Positions 23,260-53,787 of a DNA stretch of 64,000 bases are shown piece after piece; the first letter of the stretch is position 1, and the number at the start of each line of letters is the position of its first letter. A program made the position numbers and the translations under genes. Location: positions 372,001 through 436,000 of the forward strand of contig NZ_KB906253.1 of assembly GCF_000381265.1 (NCBI RefSeq), read 5' to 3'. Under the pieces are notes generated by a model, which ran no database searches, was not told where the DNA came from, and saw only the letters and a program-made list of their open reading frames with translations. This DNA is from Curvibacter lanceolatus ATCC 14669 (lineage in GTDB: Bacteria; Pseudomonadota; Gammaproteobacteria; Burkholderiales; Burkholderiaceae_C).

Positions 23260-25473
23260 ATGAGCCAGACCGACCTCAGCCTCGACTTCAGCGGCACTGA
23301 CCTCGCCAGCCTCCGCACCCGTGCGGTGCTTGATTTCATTGCCCATGCGCGCCGCACCGTGCCCGACCCTGGGCAGGCCAGCGACGCCCAATTGGCCGAG
23401 GTGGCGCAGGCCCTGGCGCAGCTGGGCCTGCGCCGCGAGCTGTTCCCCGAGGCGCACTTTCCACTCAGCGAAGAGGCCCCGGCCCGGGTCTACCGCCTGT
23501 ACGAAGACCTGGATGGCCACTATGCCCTGTACGTGTCGGCCGGCCAGCCTGGCAAGGCCCAGCCGCCGCACGACCACACCACCTGGGCCATCATCGCCGG
23601 CATCCAGGGCCACGAAGAAAACGTGCTCTACCAGCGCAGCCCCACGGCCGACCCGGCGCGTGACAGCCTGAGCCCCATCCGCACGGTGGACGTGGCCCCT
23701 GGCAGCTACATCACCCTGCAACCCACGGATGTGCACACCATCGAGCTGGTGGGGGCCGAGACCGGCCTGCACCTGCACTTCTACGGCCTGGGCCTGGACC
23801 GCCTGCCCGGGCGCGTGGTGTTTGAAAGCCGCAGCGGCGGCAGCTACCGCACCTTTGCGCCCCCGGCCCTGATCCGCCATCCCCTGATCAGCCCGGCCGC
23901 CCTGCGCGAGGCCCTGCGCGACGGCGAAGAGATCGCCGTGCTCGATGTGCGTGAAACCGGCGTCTACACCCACGGCCACCTGCTGCTGGCGGCCTCGGCG
24001 CCGCTGTGGCGGCTGGAGCTGCTGATCGACCGCCTGGTGCCGCGCCGCGGCACCCGCATCGTGCTGGTCGATGGCAACGAATCGCTGGCCCATGAGGCGG
24101 CGCGCAAGCTGGTGCGCCTGGGCTATGCCCAGGTGTCGGTGCTGGAGGGCGGCACTGAGGCCTGGGCCGCCGCCGGCTTTGAGATCTTCAGCGGTACCAA
24201 CGTGCCCAGCAAGGCCTTTGGCGAGGTCATCGAGCACGACAAGCACACCCCCTGGATCGACGTGGCCGGCCTGCGCCAGGCGCTGGATCAGGGGCAGAAC
24301 CTGGTGGTGGTGGACAGCCGCACCCCTGAAGAGTTCAAGCAGTTCAGCCTGCCCTTTGCGCACAGCCTGCCCGGTGCCGAGCTGGTCTACCGCATCCATG
24401 AGCTGGCGCCCGACCCCGACACCCTGGTGGTGGTCAACTGCGCCGGGCGCACGCGCAGCATCGTGGGCGCCCAGACCCTGATCGACGCCGGCATCCCGAA
24501 CCGCGTGGTGTCGCTCAAGGACGGCACCATGGCCTGGCTGCTGGCCGGGCAAAGCCTGGCCCAGGGCCGCAGCACGGCCCTGCCCGAGCCCTCGCCCCAG
24601 GGCCTGGCCCAGGCGCGTGAGCAGGCCGCCCGCGTGGCCGAGCGCGCCGGTGTACAGCGGCTGGAGGCAGCGGGCCTGGCACGCCTGCAGGGCCAGCGCC
24701 ACGAGCGCTCGCTGTACCTGTTTGACGTGCGCACCCGCGAGGAATACCAGGCCGGCCACCTCGAAGGCTGGCGCTGGGCCCCCGGGGGCCAGCTGGTGCA
24801 GGCCACCGACGAGTACGTGGGCACACGACGCAGCCGCATCGTGCTGGCCGACTGGGACGGCGTGCGCGCCCTCACCACCGCCGCCTGGCTGGCCCAGCTG
24901 GGTGGGCATGAGGTGTACGTGTACAGCCCGGCCGCCCAGACCACCACGGTGACCGGCCCCGAGCCGGTGCGTGTGCTGGCCTCGCAGCCCGCTGCGGCGC
25001 GCCTGTCGCCCCTGCAACTTCAGGCCTGGCAACAACAGGGCGAGGTGCTGGTGTTCGATGTGGACCGCCGTGCCGACCACGAGCGCCGCCACCTGCCCGG
25101 CGCCCGCTTTGCCGTGCCCGACCGCCTGCACGAGTTTGTGGGCACCACCGACGACACCCGCCCCATCGTCATCACCTCGCCCGACGGCGTGCTGGCCGCC
25201 ACCGTGGCGGCAGAACTGGCGCGGCGCCTGCCCACCCGCACGGTGCGCAGCCTCGCCGGGGGCACCGAGGCCTGGGCCACTGCCGGCCTGCCTCTGCAAA
25301 GTGGTGCCGATGGCGTGCTGACGGGGGACGACGACCACTGGTACAGCCCCTATGCCCATGCCGACCTGGCCCAGCGCGATGCGGGCTTCAAGTCCTACCT
25401 GGACTGGGAGCTGGGCCTGGTGGCCCAGCTGGAGCGCGAAGGCGACATCGGCATCCAGTTGATTGCGGCCTGA
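23260..25473 (+). CDS. Cupin (cysteine-dioxygenase-like) protein fused to four rhodanese domains
   Basis: A 737-residue cytoplasmic fusion. Residues about 1-200 form a cysteine-dioxygenase-like cupin with His104 and His106 (PPHDHTTW) and a late HLHFYG (His171/His173) as likely iron ligands. Four rhodanese-like domains follow at roughly 215-315, 335-440, 465-560 and 585-690. Only the second has an active-site cysteine, Cys394 in NCAGRTRS; the equivalent loops of the first, third and fourth read VDGNES, ADWDGV and TSPDGV without Cys. The likely role is oxidation of a thiol or persulfide coupled to sulfur transfer. The nitroreductase gene follows after 29 bp in the same operon. Confidence 0.82.
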   Translation: MSQTDLSLDFSGTDLASLRTRAVLDFIAHARRTVPDPGQASDAQLAEVAQALAQLGLRRELFPEAHFPLSEEAPARVYRLYEDLDGHYALYVSAGQPGKAQPPHDHTTWAIIAGIQGHEENVLYQRSPTADPARDSLSPIRTVDVAPGSYITLQPTDVHTIELVGAETGLHLHFYGLGLDRLPGRVVFESRSGGSYRTFAPPALIRHPLISPAALREALRDGEEIAVLDVRETGVYTHGHLLLAASAPLWRLELLIDRLVPRRGTRIVLVDGNESLAHEAARKLVRLGYAQVSVLEGGTEAWAAAGFEIFSGTNVPSKAFGEVIEHDKHTPWIDVAGLRQALDQGQNLVVVDSRTPEEFKQFSLPFAHSLPGAELVYRIHELAPDPDTLVVVNCAGRTRSIVGAQTLIDAGIPNRVVSLKDGTMAWLLAGQSLAQGRSTALPEPSPQGLAQAREQAARVAERAGVQRLEAAGLARLQGQRHERSLYLFDVRTREEYQAGHLEGWRWAPGGQLVQATDEYVGTRRSRIVLADWDGVRALTTAAWLAQLGGHEVYVYSPAAQTTTVTGPEPVRVLASQPAAARLSPLQLQAWQQQGEVLVFDVDRRADHERRHLPGARFAVPDRLHEFVGTTDDTRPIVITSPDGVLAATVAAELARRLPTRTVRSLAGGTEAWATAGLPLQSGADGVLTGDDDHWYSPYAHADLAQRDAGFKSYLDWELGLVAQLEREGDIGIQLIAA

Positions 25474-41374: not shown

Positions 41375-42259
41375 TCAGTTGACAAGCAACTCACGCAAGA
41401 ACCCATCCGGCCCGTCCAGTCGGCGGGCCGGCCGCCCCAGGGTCTGGGCCACGGTGTCGGTCACCGGGGCGGCCACGCCGGTGCTGATCCAGTGGTGGAA
41501 CTGGGCGTGCACCTGTTGCAGGTAGCTGGGGTGGTCCGGCGCTGGGGCCGGGGCCGAGGCCTGCCAGCGGATCGGCCGGCCGGCCAGGGCGCTCAGGCGC
41601 TGGGCCAGCTCGGCATGGCTCAGGGCCTCAGGCCCGGTCAGTTCCAGGGGCATCGCGGGCAGGGGGCCGGGGCTGAGCAAGGTGTGCACGGCCACGTCGG
41701 CAATGTCGCGGATGTCGATGTACGACACCTGGGCGGGCCCGAAGCCGCCGCCCAGCACATCGCCGGCGCGCAGCGCGGCGGCCAGCGGGGCCAGCACCAC
41801 CTGGGCCCAGGCGTTGGGGCGCAGCACCGCGTGCGGCAGGCCGCTGTCGCCCAGCGCCTGCTCGACCTGCCGGTGGGCGTCGCCGCTCCAGGTGCGACCT
41901 GCCGGTGACAAGGTCCAGGCCGAGCCCGAGAGCTTGATCAGCCGTGGCACGCCGGCCTGGCGTGCCGCCTGCACAAAGTGGCCCTGGTGCTGGGCCAGAT
42001 CGGGGCTGATGGGCGACAGCAGAAAGGCCGCCCGCACCCCGCTCAAGGCGCGTTGCAGGGTGCCAGGCTCGGCCAGCTCGCCCTGGCTCAACTCCACCCC
42101 GGCTTGCGCCAGGTGGGCAGCCAGGGTGCTTTGCCGGCTCAGCACCCGCACCCGCACGCCCTGGGCCAGCAGGCCGGCCACCACCAGGCGGCCCAGCCGC
42201 CCGCTGCCGCCGCCCACCAGCACCGGGCGGGGGTCGTCGCCGCGCAGCTGCGGGCTCAT
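41375..42259 (-). CDS. NmrA-like NAD(P)-binding reductase
   Basis: A 294-residue atypical short-chain dehydrogenase. The N-terminal dinucleotide motif reads VLVGGGSGRLGRLV, followed by FLLSPISPDLAQHQG and PNAWAQ, as in NmrA/quinone-reductase-2-type proteins. It overlaps the DszB-like gene by 4 bp and is the last gene of the minus-strand organosulfur operon. It may reduce a quinone or an oxidised product of the pathway; the substrate is unknown. About 190 bp of unassigned sequence separates it from the TetR gene. Confidence 0.8.
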   Translation of the reverse strand: MSPQLRGDDPRPVLVGGGSGRLGRLVVAGLLAQGVRVRVLSRQSTLAAHLAQAGVELSQGELAEPGTLQRALSGVRAAFLLSPISPDLAQHQGHFVQAARQAGVPRLIKLSGSAWTLSPAGRTWSGDAHRQVEQALGDSGLPHAVLRPNAWAQVVLAPLAAALRAGDVLGGGFGPAQVSYIDIRDIADVAVHTLLSPGPLPAMPLELTGPEALSHAELAQRLSALAGRPIRWQASAPAPAPDHPSYLQQVHAQFHHWISTGVAAPVTDTVAQTLGRPARRLDGPDGFLRELLVN

Positions 42260-43344
42260 GCGGCCTCCAGCACAGGCGCGCCCAGGCGGTGCAAGTGGCC
42301 CGCGTCCACCCAGTCGGCCACGCTGAAGTCGGCGCTCAAAAAGCCCTGCTGCAGCAAAAAGCCCTTGAAATGGTCCACCGCGTCCAGCAGCTCAGGGGCC
42401 AGGCTCAGGCCCAGGTGCCGGTGCACCTCGGGGCCGTTGCTGGCCAGCACGGCTTCTTCGGTGCTGCCGATCTCGCGCGCCACAAAGCGCAGGGTCTCAT
42501 CGGGATGGGCCTCGGCCCATTCGGCGCCGCGGCTCACCACGGCCAGCAGGCGCTGCACCAGGTCGGGCCGGTCGCGGGCCAGGGCCTCGTCCACCGTCAG
42601 CAGGCGGGGCGTGCCGTTGTTGATGCGCACGCGCGGGTCCGGGTGGTGCCCGGTTTCGACCACGGTCTGGGCGCCGATCAGGTTGGCCACCACGATGCCC
42701 TCGGCCCCTTTCACAAACACGGCATCCACCTCGCCGCGCTCCAGTGCGCTGATCTCGGCCGAGTAGGGGTGGCGCCGGCGCAGCCCATGCAGGCTGGCGT
42801 GACCGGGGCCCAGCAGCACGGGCTCGGTGATAGTCAGATCCACCGGCACGATGTCGGCCCAGCCCAGGCCGGCCGTGCCCAGGGCGGAGTGCAGGCCCTT
42901 GAGTGCGGTGGCGCGGTGAAAGTCGATCTGCTCGCCCACGCGCAGCGGCACGCCCAGGCGGCGCCCGGCCAGGTCGGCGGCACTGCGCAGCGGACTGTCG
43001 CGGCGGGCGATCACGGCCTGGAACTCATCGGTCCAGGTCAGGGCCACCAGCCGGGTGGCAGCCCCCTGGGCACGCGCCCACAGTGGCGGGATGTTGCCGC
43101 CCTGGCGGAACGACCAGGCCAGGTGGTGGCTGAAGTGGCTCTCGCGGATGGCCTTGACCGGGCTGTCGATGATCGACTTGACCTGCAGGCCCAGGGGCTG
43201 GAACTCGGCCTCCAGCCAGCCCAGGCGGGCCGCGATACCCAGGGGCGAGGGCACGGGGCAGCGGGTGTACCAGAGCACGGTGCCGGGGGCGTCCGTGGGG
43301 TCGCCGGCACGGGGGGTGGCCGGTGCGGCCAGGGGTTCACTCAT
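42256..43344 (-). CDS. DszB-like sulfinate desulfinase / substrate-binding-fold enzyme
   Basis: A 362-residue protein with the periplasmic-binding fold but no signal peptide. It resembles DszB (2'-hydroxybiphenyl-2-sulfinate desulfinase): TRCPVPSPLG places Cys29 where DszB has Cys27, SHFSHHLAWSFRQGG gives His70 and Arg80 where DszB has His60 and Arg70 with identical spacing, and NIPPL and LAGRRLGV also align by eye. It would release sulfite from an organic sulfinate. ATG 43344 has AAGGAAG upstream. It overlaps the NmrA-type gene and follows an SBP gene by 19 bp. An alternative is an ABC nitrate/sulfonate-type binding protein that has lost its signal. Confidence 0.78.
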   Translation of the reverse strand: MSEPLAAPATPRAGDPTDAPGTVLWYTRCPVPSPLGIAARLGWLEAEFQPLGLQVKSIIDSPVKAIRESHFSHHLAWSFRQGGNIPPLWARAQGAATRLVALTWTDEFQAVIARRDSPLRSAADLAGRRLGVPLRVGEQIDFHRATALKGLHSALGTAGLGWADIVPVDLTITEPVLLGPGHASLHGLRRRHPYSAEISALERGEVDAVFVKGAEGIVVANLIGAQTVVETGHHPDPRVRINNGTPRLLTVDEALARDRPDLVQRLLAVVSRGAEWAEAHPDETLRFVAREIGSTEEAVLASNGPEVHRHLGLSLAPELLDAVDHFKGFLLQQGFLSADFSVADWVDAGHLHRLGAPVLEAA

Positions 43345-43363: not shown

Positions 43364-45058
43364 TCAGGCGGCCAGCCAAACGTGGGCCAGGTTGCCGGCC
43401 ACACCCAGCGCACCCACGGTGTGCTGGTGCACGCGCGGGCTGGCCACGGTCAGGTTGTCGGGCGCCACCAGGGTGATGTCGGGCAGGTCACGCACGATGG
43501 CTTTCTGGATGGCTATCCACAAGGCCTGGCGTTTGGCCAGGTTGGTTTCGACGGCGGCGGCCTCCAGCCACTGGTCGACCTCGGGGTTGGCGTAGCCCGA
43601 GCCGTTGGAGAAGGGCAGGCCGCGCTTGAAGTTCTTCGACCAGTACAGGCGCTGGATGCCCACCGTGGGGTCGAAGGTGTTGCTCATGCCGCCAAAGTTG
43701 AAGTCGAAGTCGCGGTCGGTGTAGATGCGCTTGATGTAGGTGCTGAAGTCGCTGCTGCGCAGGCTCACCTCCACCCCCACCTTGCCCAGCGCCTGCTTGA
43801 TGTACTCGCTGGTGCGCAGGCCGCCCTCGTGCGGCATGGGGTCGTGGGTGAGGCGCACCCGCGCGCCATCGGCCCCGCGCGGGTAGCCCGCCTGGTCCAG
43901 CAGGCGGCCCGCGCGTTCGGGGTCGTACACCGGCACAGCCAGGTCGGCGTGGAAGAAGCGCTTCAGGCCCGGCGCCACCGGCCCCGGGGGCGAGCTGGCC
44001 AGGCCGTACCAGGCTGTCTTCACGATGGTCTGGCGGTTCAGCGCGTGGGCAAAGGCCTGGCGCACCCGCACATCCTTGAAGAAGGGGCGCTCCAGGTTGA
44101 ACTCGAGCCGGAACACCGAGTTCACGTACTGGTAGCCCTCGCTGCTGAAGCTCAGTTTGCCCGCAGCGCGCAGGCGGCCCACATCGGCCAGCGACACCGG
44201 CGTGTTGGGCGCCAGGTGCACCTCGCCGGCCTCCAGTGCGGCGCTGCGCGCGGCGGCATCCGGGATGAAGCGGATCACCAGCCGGTCCAGGTAGGGGCGG
44301 GGCTTGTCCCAATAGTCGGGGTTGCGTTCCAGCACCAGGTGGCTGCCGCGCACCCATTCCTTGAAGCGGTAGGGGCCTGTGCCGATGGGGGCGTTGTTCA
44401 CCGGGTTGGATTCGGCGCGCCCGCTGCTGTACAGGTGCTTGGGCACGATGGGTGATTCGGAGGCCGCCAGCGCATTCAGCAGGTAGGGCACGGGCGCCGA
44501 CAGGCGCAGCTCCACCGTCAGCGGGTCGGGCGTGCGCACCTCGCTGAGGTTGGCAAAGGTGGCGCGACCACGCGGGTGCACCTCTTTGAGCAGGTTCAGC
44601 GAATGCGCCACATCGGCCGAGGTGAAGGGCTGGCCGTCGTGCCACAGCACCTTGGGCCGCAGCTTGAACACATAGCGCAGGCCATCGGGCGACACCTGCC
44701 ACGACAGCGCGAGTTGCGGCTGGGGGTTCAGATCAAAGTCGTAGTCCAGCAGCCCTTCGGTGAGCTTGGCGCTCACGAAGTAGCTGTTGTTGGCGGTGTG
44801 GGCGATGGTGGTCAGCACCGGTGGCTCGGGGTAGATGGCGAGTACCAGGGTGCCGCCGCGTTGGGGCGTGGCGGTGTTGGGCGTGGCGGTGTGGGGGGTG
44901 GTCGCTGCGCGGGCCGGGGCCCAGGGCAGCAGGGCGCCGAGACCGGCGGCGCTGGTCTGGGCCAGCAGCCGGCGGCGCGACAAGCCGGCGTCGGCGGCGT
45001 GGGGCTCAGGCGCGGCGCTGCCGCCGGAGGCGGTCCAGGGGGCGTGGAAAGGGTTCAT
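43364..45058 (-). CDS. Peptide/nickel-type ABC substrate-binding protein (SBP_bac_5), Tat signal
   Basis: A 564-residue extracytoplasmic binding protein. The N-terminus has a twin-arginine motif SRRRLLAQ before a hydrophobic stretch, pointing to Tat export. Family features are LTEGLLDYDFDLNPQPQLAL, WHDGQPFTSADV and PIGTGPYRFKEW. A low-complexity TATPNTATP stretch follows the signal. No permease or ATPase is nearby. It sits between the amidase and DszB-like genes, so it probably delivers the organosulfur substrate. Confidence 0.85.
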   Translation of the reverse strand: MNPFHAPWTASGGSAAPEPHAADAGLSRRRLLAQTSAAGLGALLPWAPARAATTPHTATPNTATPQRGGTLVLAIYPEPPVLTTIAHTANNSYFVSAKLTEGLLDYDFDLNPQPQLALSWQVSPDGLRYVFKLRPKVLWHDGQPFTSADVAHSLNLLKEVHPRGRATFANLSEVRTPDPLTVELRLSAPVPYLLNALAASESPIVPKHLYSSGRAESNPVNNAPIGTGPYRFKEWVRGSHLVLERNPDYWDKPRPYLDRLVIRFIPDAAARSAALEAGEVHLAPNTPVSLADVGRLRAAGKLSFSSEGYQYVNSVFRLEFNLERPFFKDVRVRQAFAHALNRQTIVKTAWYGLASSPPGPVAPGLKRFFHADLAVPVYDPERAGRLLDQAGYPRGADGARVRLTHDPMPHEGGLRTSEYIKQALGKVGVEVSLRSSDFSTYIKRIYTDRDFDFNFGGMSNTFDPTVGIQRLYWSKNFKRGLPFSNGSGYANPEVDQWLEAAAVETNLAKRQALWIAIQKAIVRDLPDITLVAPDNLTVASPRVHQHTVGALGVAGNLAHVWLAA

Positions 45059-45069
45059 GGTGCGCTCCC

Positions 45070-46605
45070 TCAGTCGGTGCTCTGCCAGCCTGGGGGCACG
45101 ATGAAGCCAGGCTGTTGGGCCTCCAGCAACTCGGCAAAGCGGATCGGCGTGAGGTCTTCCAGGAAGGGCCCCACGGCCTGGCCGCCAATCGGCAGGCCAC
45201 TCTCGTCCAGTCCCAGCGGAAAGCTGGTGGCCGGCAGACCGGGCAGCACCGGCAGACCAGCCCAGGTGAACAGGTCCAGAAAGCGCACCGGGCGCACACC
45301 CTCGGCAAAGGCCACAGGGTAGTGGCGCTCGTCCTTGGGCTCTTGCTGGTTGTGCTCGAAGGCGGGCAGGGGGGCGACCGGGCTCAGCACCAGGTCAAAC
45401 TGTTCAAACAAGGCCTCCCATTGGGCGCGCAATTGCAGGCGCGCTTCGTTCAGGCGCAGCCAGTCGCGGTGGCTCAGCGAGAAGGAGCGCAGCCAGGCTG
45501 TGTCCGCGTCGGTGTTGGCGCTGTGGTCGTCGGGTTGCAAGGCCGCCAGGCGTTGCTGGGCCCCAGCGCTGAGGGTGGGTGGGTCAGCCAGTGACGAGCC
45601 CAGCAGGCTGCGGTACAGCGTGTGCGAGGCCACCAGATCGGGCAGCAGGCCCGGTGCCAGCTCGCTCACGCGGGTGACCTGGCCGCCACCGGCCTGCACG
45701 GCCTGCGCCAGGCGCTGGCTCACCAGTTGTTCGGACAGGCTTTGGCTGGTGCCCGGCCAATGGTCGATCAGCAGCAGGCGGAAATCGCTCAGGCGGTTGT
45801 GCCGTGGGGCGGGCAGGGTGGCGCGCCAGGTCTTGTTCTGCCGCGGGTCGCGGTTGAGCAGCAGGGGCAGGGCCAGGGCCAGGTCGGCGGCGCTGCGCGC
45901 CAGCGGGCCGGCCACGGCCAGATCGCGCTCGCCTTGGCGGCCTGCGGGCAGGCCGGTGCCCAGCAGGCTGATCAGGCCCTGGCTGGTCTTGTGCCCGTAG
46001 ACCCCCGTGAAATGGGCCGGGATGCGGATCGATCCGCCGATGTCGGTGCCCAGCTCCAACGCCACAAAGCCGGCCGCCAGCGCCGCCGCCGAGCCGCCGG
46101 ACGAACCGCCCGGCGTGCGCGCCGGGTCCCAGGGGTTGCGGCTCAGGCCATAGACCGCGTTGTAGCTTTGCAGATCGGCCAGTGCCAGGGGCACATTGCT
46201 CTTGCCCAGCACGATGGCGCCCGCCTCGCGCAGGCCGGCCACGGCGGCACTGTCTTGCGCGGCCAGGTTGCCGGTCTGGGCTGGGCTGCCCACCGTGGTG
46301 GGCAGGCCGGCGACATCAAAGTTCTCCTTCACGCTGACCGGCACGCCCAGCAAGGGGCGGCGCTCGCCGCGGGCCAGTGCAGCATCGGCGGCCCGGGCGT
46401 CGGCCCGGGCGCGCTCCAGGTCCAGCACCACCAGGGCGTTGATGGCGGGGTTCAGGCGCTCGATGCGGTCGATGCTGTGCTCCAGCAGCTCGCTGGCGCT
46501 GACCTGGCCTTCGGCCAGGGCGCGCGCCTGCTCGGTGGCCGAGGCATGGCTCAGGCGCTTCAGCAAGGCGGTCTTGAGGTGTTGGGTGTCGGCGGGTGCG
46601 TTCAT
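45070..46605 (-). CDS. Amidase (amidase-signature family)
   Basis: A 511-residue amidase. The Ser-cisSer-Lys triad is intact: Lys in GVPVSVKENFD, the first Ser in GGSSGGSAA, and the nucleophile Ser in GTDIGGSIRIP. It hydrolyses a carboxamide in the cytoplasm. It is 11 bp upstream of the second SBP gene and 55 bp downstream of the first, within the LLM/DszB operon. It could remove an amide from a taurine-, thio- or sulfonamide-like substrate; this is inferred from context. Confidence 0.88.
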   Translation of the reverse strand: MNAPADTQHLKTALLKRLSHASATEQARALAEGQVSASELLEHSIDRIERLNPAINALVVLDLERARADARAADAALARGERRPLLGVPVSVKENFDVAGLPTTVGSPAQTGNLAAQDSAAVAGLREAGAIVLGKSNVPLALADLQSYNAVYGLSRNPWDPARTPGGSSGGSAAALAAGFVALELGTDIGGSIRIPAHFTGVYGHKTSQGLISLLGTGLPAGRQGERDLAVAGPLARSAADLALALPLLLNRDPRQNKTWRATLPAPRHNRLSDFRLLLIDHWPGTSQSLSEQLVSQRLAQAVQAGGGQVTRVSELAPGLLPDLVASHTLYRSLLGSSLADPPTLSAGAQQRLAALQPDDHSANTDADTAWLRSFSLSHRDWLRLNEARLQLRAQWEALFEQFDLVLSPVAPLPAFEHNQQEPKDERHYPVAFAEGVRPVRFLDLFTWAGLPVLPGLPATSFPLGLDESGLPIGGQAVGPFLEDLTPIRFAELLEAQQPGFIVPPGWQSTD

Positions 46606-46660: not shown

Positions 46661-48274
46661 TTACTTGCCGCCTTCCACCCAGGCGTCGGACCAGTCGCCC
46701 GCGTGCAGGTCGATGCTGTTGAAGAAGTTGTGCACGCGCTTGTTCAGGGCCGAGGGGCCGGGCACGGTGACCAGCGGGTACACCGGCAGCTCGCGACCCA
46801 CGATCTGCTGGATCTGCTTGAACTGGCCGGCGCGCTTGCCCTCGTCCACTTCCACCGCAGCCTGGCGGAACAGCTCATCCACCTGGGGGTTGTTGTAGTG
46901 GGCGGCGTTGATCCAGATCAGCGGGTTCTTGATGCCGTCGGACCAATAGATGCGCTGCACGCCGACGATGGGGTCGAACAGGCGGCCCAGGCCGTTGATG
47001 TTCAGGTCGAAGTCGCGGGCGGTGTAGACGCGCTTGAAGAAGCTGGCCATGTCGCCGTCCTGCAGCTCGGCCTTGATGCCCACACGCCCCAGCGCATTGC
47101 GCAGAAACTCCGAGCTGCGCTTGAAGTCGGCGCCCGGGATGTTGGTGATGCGCAGCGCAAAGCGCTGGCCATTGGCCTGGCGCGGGTAGCCGGCCTGGTC
47201 CAGCAACTGGTTGGCGCGGGCCACGTCGTAGCCGTACTGGAAGGTGCTGTCGTCGTAATAGCTCGACAACACGCTGGGCACGGGCGAGTTGACCACCTCG
47301 GCACGCTTGTAATACACCGTGGTGCGCAGCGCATTGCGGTCGATGGCGTGCGCAATCGCCTGGCGCACCTCGGGCTTGGCCAGGATCGGGTGCTCGACGT
47401 TGAACTCGAGGAAGGCGGCGTTGTTCAGAAAGCCGTCATAGCTGTCGTCCACCTGCACCTTGGGGTTCTGGGCCAGGCGGTCCAGGTCAGCCAGGTTGAT
47501 GTTGGTCGCCACGTCGATCTCGCCCGCCTCCAGCGCGGCCACGATGCCGGCGCGGTCGCCGATGAACTTGATCACGGCGCGGTCCAGATGGGGCTTGCCC
47601 GCTTGCCAGTAATGGGGGTTCTTCTTGAGCAGCAAGTGGCTGCCGCGCACCCACTCTGCAAACACAAAAGGCCCGGTGCCGATGGGCGCGCTCTGGTTCG
47701 GGCTGGTCAGAGGGTCGGCCTCGGTGTAGCGGTGGGCCGGCACGATCGGCAGCTCGGCCGACGACAGCGATTTCAGCAGGAACGGTGTGGGCTTGCTCAG
47801 CACCAGCACGGCGGTCAGCGGGTCGGGCGTGTCCACGCGCTCCAGGTTGGCCAGGGTGATGCGCCCGCGCGGGCCCTGCTTTTTTTGCGCCAGCAGCGAG
47901 AAGCGCACATCGGCCGCGGTGAAATCCTTGCCGTCATGCCACTTCACGCCGGGGCGCAGCTTGAAGGTGTAGCGCAGGCCATCGGGGCTCACGCTCCAAC
48001 TGGTGGCCAGCAGGGGCTGGGGCTTGAACTGGCTGTCGTAGCGCAGCAGGCCCTCGACGATCTTGGCGCTGATGTTGCGGATGCGGGTGTTGGTGTCGAG
48101 AAACGACACCAGCGACGGCGGCTCCAGGTCGGTGGCCAGGGTCAGGGTGCCGCCGCTTTGGGGTTTGGCCGTGCTGCCTTGGGCGCTGGCGCTCAGGCTG
48201 GCGCCCGCCAGGGGCAGGGCGGCCAGCAGCAGGGCGAGCAGGCGGCGGTTGAGTTGGGGCAGGCGCTGGGTCAT
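46661..48274 (-). CDS. Peptide/nickel-type ABC substrate-binding protein (SBP_bac_5), Sec signal
   Basis: A 537-residue binding protein paralogous to the one at 43364-45058. The signal peptide is MTQRLPQLNRRLLALLLAAL and on to SASA. It shares LVEGLL-type, WHDGKDFTAADV, PIGTGPFVFAEWVRGSHLLL and late YWSDGIKNPL segments with its paralogue. ATG 48274 was chosen; the frame extends to 48394 without a signal. It is the second gene of the operon, after the LLM monooxygenase. Confidence 0.88.
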   Translation of the reverse strand: MTQRLPQLNRRLLALLLAALPLAGASLSASAQGSTAKPQSGGTLTLATDLEPPSLVSFLDTNTRIRNISAKIVEGLLRYDSQFKPQPLLATSWSVSPDGLRYTFKLRPGVKWHDGKDFTAADVRFSLLAQKKQGPRGRITLANLERVDTPDPLTAVLVLSKPTPFLLKSLSSAELPIVPAHRYTEADPLTSPNQSAPIGTGPFVFAEWVRGSHLLLKKNPHYWQAGKPHLDRAVIKFIGDRAGIVAALEAGEIDVATNINLADLDRLAQNPKVQVDDSYDGFLNNAAFLEFNVEHPILAKPEVRQAIAHAIDRNALRTTVYYKRAEVVNSPVPSVLSSYYDDSTFQYGYDVARANQLLDQAGYPRQANGQRFALRITNIPGADFKRSSEFLRNALGRVGIKAELQDGDMASFFKRVYTARDFDLNINGLGRLFDPIVGVQRIYWSDGIKNPLIWINAAHYNNPQVDELFRQAAVEVDEGKRAGQFKQIQQIVGRELPVYPLVTVPGPSALNKRVHNFFNSIDLHAGDWSDAWVEGGK

Positions 48275-48335: not shown

Positions 48336-49523
48336 TCACAGGCGCAGGCCAGCCTGCTTGAGCAGGGGCAGGATGCGGTCGCCGAAGTACTCAAGATCGG
48401 GCTTGAAGTCGTAGAAGCTCAGTTGCAGCCCATCCACGCCGGCGCGGTGCAGCTGCACAAACTGCTCCACCACCTGCTCGGGCGTGCCCACCACTTCGAT
48501 GTTGCCGCCGATGGCGCGGCGGCTCGGTGGGTCGATGCCGACCCGGCCCTTCCAGGCGTGGGCATCGCTGGCCAGGCTGTTGAAGCCCTGGGGCGTGGTC
48601 GGGTCCTGGTGGGCCACGATGGCGTCGTAGTAGGCGCGTGTCTCGGCCTCGGTGTCGCGGCTGATCACCAGCGGGTTCAGCAGGGTGCGCACTTCGCGGC
48701 CCTGCTGGCGCGCGCGTGCCTTCAGGTCGGCGATGTGGGCGGGCAGGGCCTGCACGGCGCTCGCAAAGTCCGAGCCCGCCGGGCTGGTGATGAAGACGAT
48801 GTCGGAGTAGCGCGCTGCGTACTCAAAGCCCGCGACCGAGCCCGTGGCATTGACCAGCACCGGGCGCCCGTAGCGGGGCTTGGGGCTGGCAAAGGCGCCT
48901 TGCAGCTTCCAGCTCGATTCGCGGCCTTCGTAGCTGAAGTTCTCGGGGTCGCTCCACAGGCGCTGCACCACCTCGATGAACTCGGCCGTCAGGTCATAGC
49001 GATGGTCGTGCTCGATGCGCTCCCAGCCGAACATGCGGTGCTCCACCTCGCGGTGACCGGTGACCACGTTGATGCCCCAGCGTCCGCCCGAGATGTGGTC
49101 CAGGGTGGCACCCCACTTGGCCAGGTGCAGCGGGTGCAGCGGGCCGTACAGCACATGCAGGGTCGAGATCAGGATGATGCGCTGCGTCACCGAGGTCAGC
49201 GCCGCGGTGGTCATGAACGAGTCCAGCGCATTGCCGTCGAACACGCCGCCATAGCCGCCCTTGGGCAGCCACTGCGACAGCGCGAACACCAGGTCAAAGC
49301 CCAGTGACTCGGCTTTCAGCACCAGGTCGCGGTTGTAGTCGAAGCGCCAGTCGGTGCTGCGCGGCAGGGTCGAGGCGCTCCAGCCTCCGGCCTGGATGGG
49401 CAGGAACAGGCCCAGCAGAACGGGTTGCTTCAGGGCTTGCGACAAGGGGCTGTCCGGGAAATCGGTGGGGGCGGCAAAGCGGTCCAGGCCGACCAGGGCC
49501 CCGGCATGAGATGGCAGTGACAT
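48336..49523 (-). CDS. LLM-class FMNH2-dependent monooxygenase (SfnG/SsuD-like)
   Basis: A 395-residue luciferase-like flavin monooxygenase, first gene of the minus-strand operon. WRFDYNRDLVLKAESLGFDL, LHLAKWGATLDHISGGRWGI and NVVTGHREVEHRMFG are typical of dimethylsulfone/alkanesulfonate monooxygenases, and the C-terminal VVGTPEQVVEQF is the conserved final helix. It would oxidise a C-S bond with FMNH2 and O2, giving a sulfinate or sulfite. The DszB-like desulfinase further down the same operon could act on such a sulfinate. Confidence 0.86.
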   Translation of the reverse strand: MSLPSHAGALVGLDRFAAPTDFPDSPLSQALKQPVLLGLFLPIQAGGWSASTLPRSTDWRFDYNRDLVLKAESLGFDLVFALSQWLPKGGYGGVFDGNALDSFMTTAALTSVTQRIILISTLHVLYGPLHPLHLAKWGATLDHISGGRWGINVVTGHREVEHRMFGWERIEHDHRYDLTAEFIEVVQRLWSDPENFSYEGRESSWKLQGAFASPKPRYGRPVLVNATGSVAGFEYAARYSDIVFITSPAGSDFASAVQALPAHIADLKARARQQGREVRTLLNPLVISRDTEAETRAYYDAIVAHQDPTTPQGFNSLASDAHAWKGRVGIDPPSRRAIGGNIEVVGTPEQVVEQFVQLHRAGVDGLQLSFYDFKPDLEYFGDRILPLLKQAGLRL

Positions 49524-49765: not shown

Positions 49766-50788
49766 ATGACCTACCGTTACCTGGGCCGCAGCGGCCTGCG
49801 CGTGTCCCGCCTGAGCCTGGGCACCATGATGTTCGGCGGTGCCACCGACGAGCCCACCTCGCACCGCATCATTGCCAGTGCCCGCGAGCAGGGCGTCAAC
49901 TTCATCGACACGGCCGACGCCTACCAGAAGGGCCGCACCGAAGAGGTGGTGGGCCGCGCCCTGCAGGGCGACCGCGACCATTGGGTGCTGGCCACCAAGC
50001 TGTCCAACCCCATGGGGCCGGGGCCCAATGAGCGCGGCACTTCGCGCAAGTGGATCGTGCAGGCGGTGGAAGGCAGCCTGAAGCGCCTGGGCACCGACTA
50101 CATCGACCTGCTGTACCTGCACCGGGCCGACTTCGAGGCCCCCTTGGGGGAGGCTGTGCGCGCCCTGGGCGATCTGGTGCGGGCCGGCAAGCTGCGCTAC
50201 TTTGGCCTGGCCAACTTCCGGGGTTGGCGCATTGCCGAGGTGGCCCACCTGGCCGATGCCGAAGGCATTGACCGTCCGGTGGCCAGCCAGCCCCTGTACA
50301 ACCTGGTGGACCGCAGTGCCGAGGTGGAGCAGCTGCCCGCGGCCGCCCACTACGGGCTGGGCGTGGTCTCGTACAGCGCGCTGGCCCGCGGTGTGCTGAC
50401 GGCCAAGTACGACCCCGATGCCCCGCCCCCCGCCGGCTCGCGTGCAGCGCGCAGCGACAAGCGCCTGCTGGAAACCGAATGGCGCCCCGAGTCACTTCGC
50501 ATTGCGCGCCAACTGCGAGAGCATGCCGAGGCGCGCGGCATCACCCCGGCCGAGCTGGCCGTGGCCTGGGTGCTGAACAACCGCCTGGTCACCTCCTTCA
50601 TCGCCGGTCCACGCACCGAGGAACAATGGCAGGCCTACGTGAAGGCGCAGGATGTCGAGCTGACGCCTGAGGACGAGGCGCTGGTGAATCGCCTGGTGCC
50701 CGCAGGCCACAGCTCCACCCCGGGCTACACCGACCCAGGTCACCCGGTGGAGGGGCGCGTGCCCTTTGTGCTGCCGACAGCCGCCTGA
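49766..50788 (+). CDS. Aldo/keto reductase
   Basis: A 340-residue NADPH-dependent aldo/keto reductase of the YghZ/Tas type. The N-terminus MTYRYLGRSGLRVSRLSLGT, INFIDTADAY with the catalytic Asp/Tyr, ATKLSNPMGPGPNERGTSRK (catalytic Lys early in it) and YIDLLYLHRAD (with the catalytic His) are all present. It reduces aldehydes or ketones in the cytoplasm. Divergent from the LLM operon; it may detoxify or reduce a carbonyl released by monooxygenase desulfonation. Confidence 0.9.
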   Translation: MTYRYLGRSGLRVSRLSLGTMMFGGATDEPTSHRIIASAREQGVNFIDTADAYQKGRTEEVVGRALQGDRDHWVLATKLSNPMGPGPNERGTSRKWIVQAVEGSLKRLGTDYIDLLYLHRADFEAPLGEAVRALGDLVRAGKLRYFGLANFRGWRIAEVAHLADAEGIDRPVASQPLYNLVDRSAEVEQLPAAAHYGLGVVSYSALARGVLTAKYDPDAPPPAGSRAARSDKRLLETEWRPESLRIARQLREHAEARGITPAELAVAWVLNNRLVTSFIAGPRTEEQWQAYVKAQDVELTPEDEALVNRLVPAGHSSTPGYTDPGHPVEGRVPFVLPTAA

Positions 50789-52199: not shown

Positions 52200-53787
52200 A
52201 TGGCCAAACGATCTGGCTTTTTGCGCTTTGGCGCCTTTCTGTACCCCACCGGCCACCACATCGCGGCCTGGCGCCACCCGGACACGGTGCCCGGTGCGGG
52301 GCTCAACATCCGTCACTACCGTGAGCTGGCCCAGATCGCCGAGGCGGCGCGCTTTGACCTGCTGTTTCTGGCCGACGGTGTGGGCACCCGGGGCGACCGG
52401 CCTGAGGTACTGAGCCGCACCGCGCACAGCTATGTGTCGCAGTTCGAGCCTCTCACGCTGCTGGCGTCTCTCTCGGCCGTGACCGAGCGCATCGGCCTGG
52501 TGGGCACGGCCTCGACCAGCTTCAATGAGCCCTTTCACATTGCGCGCAAGTTTGCCTCGCTGGACCACCTGAGCGGCGGGCGATCGGGCTGGAACCTGGT
52601 CACCTCGTCCAGCGAGTTCGAGGCGCGCAATTTCAACCTGGAGCACCACCTGGCCCATGCCGACCGCTACGAACGTGCCAGCGAGTTTGCCGATGTGGTG
52701 CAGGGCCTGTGGAACAGCTGGGACGCCGACGCCTTTGTGTGGGACAAGGCCGGTGGTCGGGTGTTCGACCCGGCACACCGCCATGTGCTGAACCACAAGG
52801 GCAAGCACTTTTCGGTGCAAGGCCCCTTGAACGTGGCCCGCTCTCCACAGGGCCGGCCGGTGCTGGTGCAGGCCGGCTCGTCCGAGGCCGGTAAGGCCCT
52901 GGCCGCGCGCACGGCCGAGGTGGTCTTCACCGCCCAGCAGACCCTGCAGGACGCGGTGGATTTCTATGCCGACCTGAAGGGCCGCCTGGCCGCCCACGGG
53001 CGCGACCCGGCCAGCCTGTTGGTGATGCCGGGCGTGTTCCCGGTGGTGGGCAGCAGCGAGAGCGAGGCCCGCGAGAAGTTCGAGCAACTGCAGTCGCTGA
53101 TCGACCCGGTGCTGGGCCTGTCGCTGATCTCGGGGCTGACCGGGGGGGTGGACCTGTCGGGCTACGACCAAGGGCCTGTTAACCCTGATTTCGCCGGATG
53201 CGTTGGAGGTCCAAAAGGCCTAGCGCAAGGCGCCAACCGCAGCTGGGTCGGTGACCCAGCGAGGATTGGCAACGCCGCGATCGGCCTTTTGGGCTCCAAC
53301 CCGAAGGGAAGCCGGCTGGCCAAGCGCCACTCGGCGTTGCGTGTCTTGCCCAGACGCCCGGTCTGGGCTGCGACACGCGCCTTGATTGGCGCTTGGCCAG
53401 CAGGCTTCGCACCGGCGAAATCAGGGTTAACAGGCCCTATGCGGCCCCATCCCCGAACTGCCCGAAACCAACGCCAGCAAGAGCCGGCAGGACCTGACAC
53501 TGAAGCTGGCCCGCAGCGAGAACCTGAGCATCCGCCAGCTCTACCTGCGCGTGGCGGGTGCCCGGGGCCACTGGCAACTGGTGGGCACGCCCGAGCAGAT
53601 CGCCGACCAACTCGAAGAGCGCTTTGTGAACTACGGTGCCGACGGCTTCAACGTGATGGCCCCGGTGCTGCCCAACGGCCTGCGCGACTTTGCCGAGCGG
53701 GTGCTGCCCGAGCTGCGCCGGCGCGGGCTGGCACGCACCGAGTACGACGGCGCCACGCTGCGTGCCAATCTGGGCCTTCAGGCCTGA
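52200..53787 (+). pseudogene. NtaA/SnaA/DszA-type LLM monooxygenase, interrupted by a MITE-like element
   Basis: The 5' part (52200 to 53170) encodes 323 residues of a typical NtaA/DszA-family FMNH2 monooxygenase (FGAFLYPTGHHIAAWRHPD, then HLSGGRSGWNLVTSS). At 53171 a 268-bp element interrupts codon 324. The 3' part (53439-53787) continues in another frame with PIPELPETNASKS to the usual C-terminus (LVGTPEQIADQL). Removing exactly 268 bp restores one frame of 439 residues, the normal family length. As it stands the gene reads through the element into a wrong frame ending at 53963, giving a 587-residue chimera unlikely to work. GGAGA precedes ATG 52200. Confidence 0.85.
53171..53438. mobile_element. 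268-bp MITE-like element with perfect 27-bp terminal inverted repeats
   Basis: The left end starts AGGGCCTGTTAACCCTGATT at 53171-53197 and the right end (53412-53438) is its exact reverse complement over 27 bp. The interior holds no transposase; only short frames exist, open through most of the element on both strands. It lies inside a monooxygenase gene. No obvious target duplication is seen: left flank ends in CCA, right flank begins ATG. Precise removal of 268 bp restores the host frame. It is probably moved in trans by a transposase that recognises GGGCCTGTTAAC-type ends. Confidence 0.85.

Follow-up and report, generated by a model that had tools for sequence, protein, structure and literature searches.

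The gene at positions 42256..43344 (minus strand) of the window, the whole 64,000-nucleotide stretch of Curvibacter lanceolatus ATCC 14669 DNA analyzed here, encodes a 362-amino acid protein (P0002) that is probably a sulfinate desulfinase of the DszB family, with desulfination as its candidate activity. The assignment draws on homology, an active-site motif, tree position, the fold match of a structure model, and the gene neighborhood. Motif conservation and the branch of the tree on which the protein falls speak for a member of the DszB desulfinase family and against a role in transport. The closest relative among the matches listed is a protein of Curvibacter gracilis ATCC BAA-807 with 98% identity.

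When searched with phmmer against the sequences of the PDB, the protein matched DszB (2DE2, E = 1.2e-17; 2DE3, E = 3.5e-16), and the four non-DszB sequences found up to E = 1 all scored 0.022 or worse. The phmmer alignment with DszB pairs the Cys, the HF and R-x-GG motifs, IPPL (residues 85–88 of the window protein), and DLAGRR (with LAGRR at residues 125–129), which bears out the claim of the earlier note that a DszB-like Cys29, His70, and Arg80 are present together with the IPPL and LAGRR segments. Cys29 (codon 43258..43260), which is the single cysteine of the protein, His70 (43135..43137), Arg80 (43105..43107), and Gly83 (43096..43098, all on the minus strand) correspond to Cys27, His60, Arg70, and Gly73 of the DszB active site (PMC12168087). 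The same note had placed these residues at the positions and spacing of DszB. This holds for the His–Arg distance, which is 10 in both proteins, but not for the Cys–His distance (41 residues in the window protein versus 33 in DszB), so that the correspondence is one by alignment and not by equal spacing. Thr27 of the window protein aligns with Ser25 of DszB, which is part of the DFT model in PMC6100217.

The six peptide patterns used to collect relatives all avoid the Cys, His, Arg, and Gly active-site residues. Among 90 sequences (the window protein and 89 relatives from 80 loci, the best 80 of 114, tandem copies included and one sequence being 98% identical to the window protein), Cys and His are each kept in 89, and Arg and Gly83 in all 90. 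The exception in this count is a third Devosia copy (L052 1876–2919), which carries Ser and Tyr in place of Cys and His. In a Sphingobium copy (L104 4198–5250), the His is absent in the alignment. Given this degree of conservation, and identities to the window protein of 38–69% among the remaining 39 sequences in alignment A1, we rejected a chance origin of the motif.

The AlphaFold2 model of the protein (40 sequences; pLDDT 85.9, pTM 0.85, low confidence for residues 1–17) assumes a two-lobed fold that is nearest to DszB by Foldseek ranking. Three DszB chains, with 26–27% identity, occupy ranks 1–3 (2.6e-21 to 6.9e-20) and are followed by SsuA (1.9e-15). TM-scores on query length are 0.69–0.71 for DszB and 0.60–0.63 for the SsuA entries 3ksx, 2x26, 3ksj, and 3e4r; because the SsuA-like 3uif reaches 0.70, the TM-score alone does not discriminate between DszB and SsuA-like proteins. 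In the model, Cys29 follows strand 23–28, His70 is located toward the end of helix 64–72, and Arg80 is found within strand 78–82, ahead of helix 85–92. The blocks that carry the three residues have a mean pLDDT of 85–92, and the residues are predicted to sit at the cleft of the fold.

In a tree of 63 rows, in which DszB is represented by a homolog from M. yongonense, this homolog and the family, 35 rows together, fall on one side of a branch with support of 100/100. After removal of the motif columns and of the long-branch row L109, 34 DszB-family rows are still separated from 28 binding-protein rows (100/99), and this split is present in all 200 bootstrap trees (unrooted). Left out of the trees were two neighbor genes (L108_6853 and L108_5786), the repeats L099 and L101 (of L003 and L002, respectively), L114, which is the window itself, and the short rows L003, L124, and L125. 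At the motif columns, the Cys, His, and Arg are absent from all 33 binding-protein rows (31 distinct); in two of these rows, L003 and the repeat L099, the Cys column is empty. A profile of the family likewise leaves a wide gap in score. Among 398 Pseudomonadota genomes, including that of the window, seven score 403–650 bits and the other listed best matches 72 or less, and among 299 genomes of the family to which the window belongs, 12 score 257–611 bits and the next two 81 and 79; because at most five (398 genomes) or six (299 genomes) candidates were scored per genome, weak extra copies may be missed in these counts.

A gammaproteobacterial genus (g40) harbors the family in tandem: 15 of its 25 genomes contain two adjacent members, each scoring above 370 bits. 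Each of the 15 pairs combines a WYTRCP copy with a WYTHSP copy, both of which retain His, Arg, and Gly, and an identical Cys/Ser pair is found in a different genus of the same taxonomic family (G387). The four Ser copies included in the 63-row tree form one starred group. The C27S mutant was used for the DszB–substrate crystal, as given by a structure title among the Foldseek matches; the Ser copies, a natural counterpart of this laboratory mutant, therefore probably bind without the usual chemistry. These pairs raise a clear mechanistic question.

The N terminus of the window protein is devoid of a hydrophobic stretch, the maximum 13-residue Kyte–Doolittle mean being −0.11 (the two binding proteins of the operon reach 1.28 and 2.45), in agreement with the earlier observation that a signal peptide is absent. 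For the 90 members, this maximum ranges from −1.67 to 1.89 (median 0.40) with script-chosen starts, some N termini thus being fairly hydrophobic. By simple hydropathy, the window protein clearly lacks an export signal, a conclusion confined to this one protein.

The desulfinase gene is the fifth in a run of six on the minus strand. The run opens with an LLM flavin monooxygenase (48336..49523), followed by an SBP_bac_5 binding protein (46661..48274), an amidase-signature hydrolase (45070..46605), and another SBP_bac_5 binding protein of the Opp/Dpp/Gsi type (43364..45058), and it ends with an NmrA/SDR-type NAD(P)-binding protein (41375..42259), the gene for which shares 4 bp with that of the desulfinase. 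The gaps along the run, from the LLM gene onward, are 61, 55, 11, 19, and −4 bp. An aldo/keto reductase gene (49766..50788, plus strand) diverges from the operon across 242 bp. The hydrolase scores above the NCBIfam PRK06170 cut-off and has urethanase-like relatives in the PDB. The nearest solved relative of the LLM protein is the dimethylsulfone monooxygenase SfnG, but its score with the SfnG model TIGR04021 (201.6 bits) lies below the cut-off of 382.95, and we rejected it as SfnG proper. An SfnG-like monooxygenase, an amidase, and two SBP_bac_5 proteins are thus the neighbors that had been named from the first reading of the sequence.

The adjacency to dszA and dszC that belongs to DszB sensu stricto (EC 3.13.1.3) was not found in this operon. 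Nor does the operon contain an SfnB/DszC-related gene, for which there was no match anywhere within the window; the route discussed below is therefore locally incomplete. The genome (6.8 Mb) contains four SfnB-like matches (262–343 bits), all outside the window, and by hand calculation the chance of such a match is about 0.012 per 21-kb stretch. Locus L005 is likewise without an SfnB/DszC-related gene.

Neighboring genes were counted at set bit thresholds in 80 loci (the best 80 of 114 relatives), an uneven sample of 15 Burkholderiales and 65 Rhizobiales-type loci as assigned from record titles, with class sums made by hand; because 14 of the 80 are shorter than 20.6 kb, some of the absences are cut-offs. 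A peptide-type binding protein (SBP_bac_5) is encoded in 79 of these 80 loci and an Opp-type permease in 76. Of the four flavin-enzyme types sought, at least one was found in every locus and at least two in 76. The ACAD2 type is present in 70 loci (10/15 Burkholderiales and 60/65 Rhizobiales-type), the SfnB type in 64 (5/15 and 59/65), the LLM type of the window in 52 (15/15 and 37/65), and an NtaA/DmoA-type LLM in 35. Grouped into classes, an SfnB/DszC-related gene (of either the ACAD2 or the SfnB type) occurs in 78 of the 80 loci and an LLM-class gene (the LLM type of the window or the NtaA type) in 69. The two classes occur together in 67 loci, and 11 show no gene of the LLM class within the stretch covered. 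An aldo/keto reductase accompanies 68 loci (5/15 and 63/65) and an amidase 12 (12/15 and 0/65), whereas NmrA (11/80), sulfurtransferase (9/80), and cysteine dioxygenase (2/80) genes are less frequent, and no sulfite oxidase gene was found in the 80 loci searched.

The two types within the SfnB/DszC-related class differ in their matches. With the model TIGR04022 (cut-off 430.9), the SfnB-type gene of locus L020 reaches 284.6 bits, and it matches the structures of MsuC and DszC. Four ACAD2 members score 104–129 bits with the same model, and their nearest structure is of the acyl-CoA-dehydrogenase type; a role of ACAD2 in S-oxidation is putative only.

Two loci illustrate the setting. In Sinorhizobium meliloti AK83, two desulfinase-like genes flank an ACAD gene and are followed by genes for NmrA, an FAD oxidoreductase, an NAD(P)-dependent oxidoreductase, an NtaA-type monooxygenase, and a sulfite oxidase, with sulfate transport genes near the cluster. 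The region of Variovorax VAI-C comprises SfnB, aldo/keto reductase, LLM, ACAD, SBP, amidase, two SBPs, desulfinase, SDR, and sulfurtransferase, and a cysteine dioxygenase further along. We therefore rejected an operon peculiar to the strain of the window, as the gene setting is common to Comamonadaceae and Rhizobiales. The operon had earlier been called unfamiliar, a label that calls for revision; in these groups the setting mostly includes SfnB/DszC-related genes, which are absent from the operon of the window. The related loci are predicted to represent a 4S-like gene set for an imported organosulfur compound, in other words a sulfur-scavenging cluster common to soil and root bacteria and distinct from dsz.

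A distinctly improbable alternative is that the protein is an SsuA/TauA/NMT1-type binding protein whose signal peptide has been lost, or a cytosolic subunit with a ligand-binding or regulatory role, in either case non-catalytic. The fold is common to both groups, Pfam reports NMT1, “ABC transporter substrate-binding protein” is a frequent annotation among the relatives, and the conserved Ser29 paralogs in one genus indicate that the fold can persist without the Cys. The window protein also matches SsuA_fam (TIGR01728) with 77.3 bits, below the cut-off of 163.5, but the DszB homolog L106 does so as well (65.4 bits, also sub-threshold), which deprives the match of discriminating value. Six members scanned against NCBIfam gave 45–77 bits with SsuA_fam and reached the cut-off of no model. 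NCBIfam cannot tell desulfinases from binding proteins, and this is the likely source of the name that the relatives carry. SsuA and TauA lack the Cys/His/Arg set and are separated from the family by a branch with strong support, 89 of the 90 members retain the Cys, and the SBP_bac_5 genes, present in all but one of the best 80 of 114 loci, already fill the transport role. Tree, motif, and the gap in profile scores led us to reject a binding-protein identity. The earlier note had named a position among ABC binding proteins with scattered residues as the outcome that would speak against a desulfinase; the 34/28 split without the motif columns and the retention of Cys, His, and Arg in 89, 89, and 90 of 90 members do not refute its reading.

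Thi5 has the same fold, carries a CCCFC motif, and draws on PLP and a histidine of its own to form a precursor of thiamine. Pfam NMT1/THI5 and Foldseek matches to Thi5 from 5.6e-13 onward point in this direction; however, Foldseek scores DszB and SsuA better, the neighboring genes are of the sulfur type, and CCCFC is impossible in a protein with a single Cys, which makes a Thi5-like enzyme extremely unlikely. Somewhat less remote, but still unlikely, is a desulfinase for an amide-linked sulfinate trimmed by the neighboring amidase, which would be a special case of the desulfinase reading and which the earlier note had favored. The amidase does lie inside the operon of the window and in 12 of 15 Burkholderiales loci, but it is found in none of the 65 Rhizobiales-type loci (best 80 of 114), in which most of the other genes are kept. 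We thus rejected the amidase as the definer of the substrate; an amide-linked sulfinate is not supported as the core substrate, and the amidase would be a local extension at best.

For the DszB-family desulfinase, we propose a 4S-like route of sulfur scavenging, which as a whole and as written has about an even chance of being correct. A soluble organosulfur compound would be imported by the peptide-type ABC uptake system and, where an amidase is present, trimmed by it. The SfnB/DszC-related flavin enzymes would then S-oxidize the compound; in the strain of the window, these may be encoded elsewhere, or the substrate may arrive already oxidized. The SfnG/DszA-type LLM monooxygenase would cleave the C–S bond of the sulfone to a sulfinate and a carbonyl fragment, the latter being handled by the aldo/keto reductase, and the cytosolic desulfinase would end the route by releasing sulfite from the sulfinate. 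In this last step, Cys29 would give a proton to carbon, with His70, Arg80, and Gly83 holding the sulfinate; calculations on DszB favor proton transfer from Cys27 to carbon (PMC6100217). We infer catalysis, cell location, order of steps, and sulfite as the product. The chemistry of DszB also makes an aryl, heteroaryl, or vinyl sulfinate a likelier substrate than a simple alkyl sulfinate.

Other members of the family are found next to other kinds of LLM genes. An NtaA/DszA-type LLM gene directly adjoins the M. yongonense DszB homolog and the family gene of Sphingobium TomTYG65, there named soxB. SsuD-like LLM genes, which score below the cut-off of the SsuD model, adjoin the family gene in Rhizobium ACO-34A and, as seen in G058, in a gammaproteobacterial genus, and one lies in the same gene run as the family gene in Streptomyces SAT1. 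No LLM gene is annotated in the vicinity of L109 or L183, two distant members of the family, the former of which lies between genes for 2-hydroxyacyl-CoA dehydratases and activases. We tentatively suggest, at slightly less than even likelihood, that DszB represents a single twig of a broad family of sulfinate desulfinases, most of them unlabeled, that serve as an exchangeable last step. They would be coupled to at least three kinds of C–S-cleaving LLM enzymes (DszA-like, SsuD-like, and SfnG/RutA-like) and, in rhizobia, Comamonadaceae, and their relatives, complete a 4S-like pathway that acts on a soluble thioether or sulfone after its import, with active Cys subunits paired with non-cysteine Ser subunits in one gammaproteobacterial genus.

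DszB, known mainly from actinobacteria, catalyzes the slow last step of fossil-fuel desulfurization. As the 2'-hydroxybiphenyl-2-sulfinate desulfinase of the 4S pathway (2DE2, 2DE3, 2DE4), it shares with the window protein the fold, the Cys/His/Arg/Gly set, the CPVP, IPPL, and LAGRR segments, and an LLM monooxygenase gene in the same run, at about 26–30% sequence identity. In contrast to the dsz system, the LLM partner in the window is SfnG/RutA-like and not DszA, the host belongs to the Proteobacteria, and the cluster includes peptide-type binding proteins, aldo/keto reductase, NmrA, and amidase. The dimethylsulfone route of SfnG and MsuC oxidizes methanesulfinate to the sulfonate and, to our knowledge, uses no desulfinase. 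Its enzymes (PDB 8t0u, 6u76) are nevertheless akin to those discussed here, SfnG being the nearest solved relative of the LLM protein and MsuC, like DszC, being related to the SfnB-type gene of the related loci. The bdsABC genes of Gordonia terrae C-6, which serve benzothiophene desulfurization (PMC3868597), also combine a desulfinase with DszC-like and DszA-like genes at low similarity to Dsz; compared by description only, they differ as a three-gene actinobacterial operon with a known substrate.

No published account of the proteobacterial family was found in the titles and abstract openings among the matches listed. The family is a source of candidate genes for the benzothiophene desulfurization by Sinorhizobium sp. 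KT55, for which the reference list of PMC3868597 gives a report of 2001; the abstract of PMC3868597 itself (2013) states that genetic components of benzothiophene desulfurization had not been reported until then. If the family is catalytic, it would supply many natural alternatives to DszB, and desulfination would belong to the ordinary sulfur scavenging of Proteobacteria from soil and roots, frequently concealed behind the label of an ABC transporter substrate-binding protein.

A Cys version and a Ser version of the DszB-like protein are encoded next to each other in 15 of 25 genomes of the gammaproteobacterial genus g40 (loci L117–L119, L156–L167, and L175–L182), and one such pair is found outside this genus (locus L115, genome G387). 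The arrangement is conserved as a pair across these 15 genomes and G387, and both copies of the g40 pairs retain the active-site His, Arg, and Gly. The Ser copies of g40 and G387 are a natural counterpart of the DszB mutant C27S. Elsewhere in the family, a Devosia copy (L052, 1876–2919, minus strand) has lost active-site residues, with Cys replaced by Ser and His by Tyr, and a Sphingobium copy (L104, 4198–5250) appears in the alignment without the active-site His.

The window contains a 737-amino acid ORF (23260–25473, plus strand) with a rhodanese part recognized by Pfam, of which the stretch 23875–25431 is 40% identical to a Variovorax sulfurtransferase. Upstream in the same frame, 23386–23841 shows 38% identity to a second Variovorax protein, which carries a cysteine dioxygenase family annotation. 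The Pfam scan of this ORF gave no dioxygenase domain. From these matches, the ORF is apparently a fusion of a cysteine dioxygenase-like and a rhodanese part. In Variovorax VAI-C, homologues of both parts lie close to the desulfinase cluster.

The window also carries a broken NtaA/DmoA-type LLM gene (52200–53553). Its first part, up to 53180, matches residues 41–368 of the homologue at locus L078, and its second part, from 53437, matches residues 364–402; the two lie in different frames, ∼256 bp apart. Further NtaA-type LLM genes occur elsewhere in the same genome (contig C6, ∼300–306 kb, L099), close to an ACAD2-like gene (46% to Comamonas) and a sulfonate-binding-protein-like gene, making this region a candidate second organosulfur locus.

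Curvibacter gracilis ATCC BAA-807 possesses an additional ∼3.3 kb between the NmrA and TetR genes (L005, 12000–15320) that is absent from the window. Visual reading of the translated segment suggests genes for a metallophosphoesterase, a cytochrome c, and a sigma factor, plus one further ORF.

A distant family member (25.8%) is located on a Rhizobium leguminosarum plasmid (L109, 5950–7116), where the alignment reveals the C, HY, and R-x-GG residues. The gene sits between a pair of 2-hydroxyacyl-CoA dehydratase-type genes and a pair of activase genes, and the locus also contains rhodaneses and a SulP permease. This neighborhood is a candidate reductive, non-oxygenase setting for desulfination.
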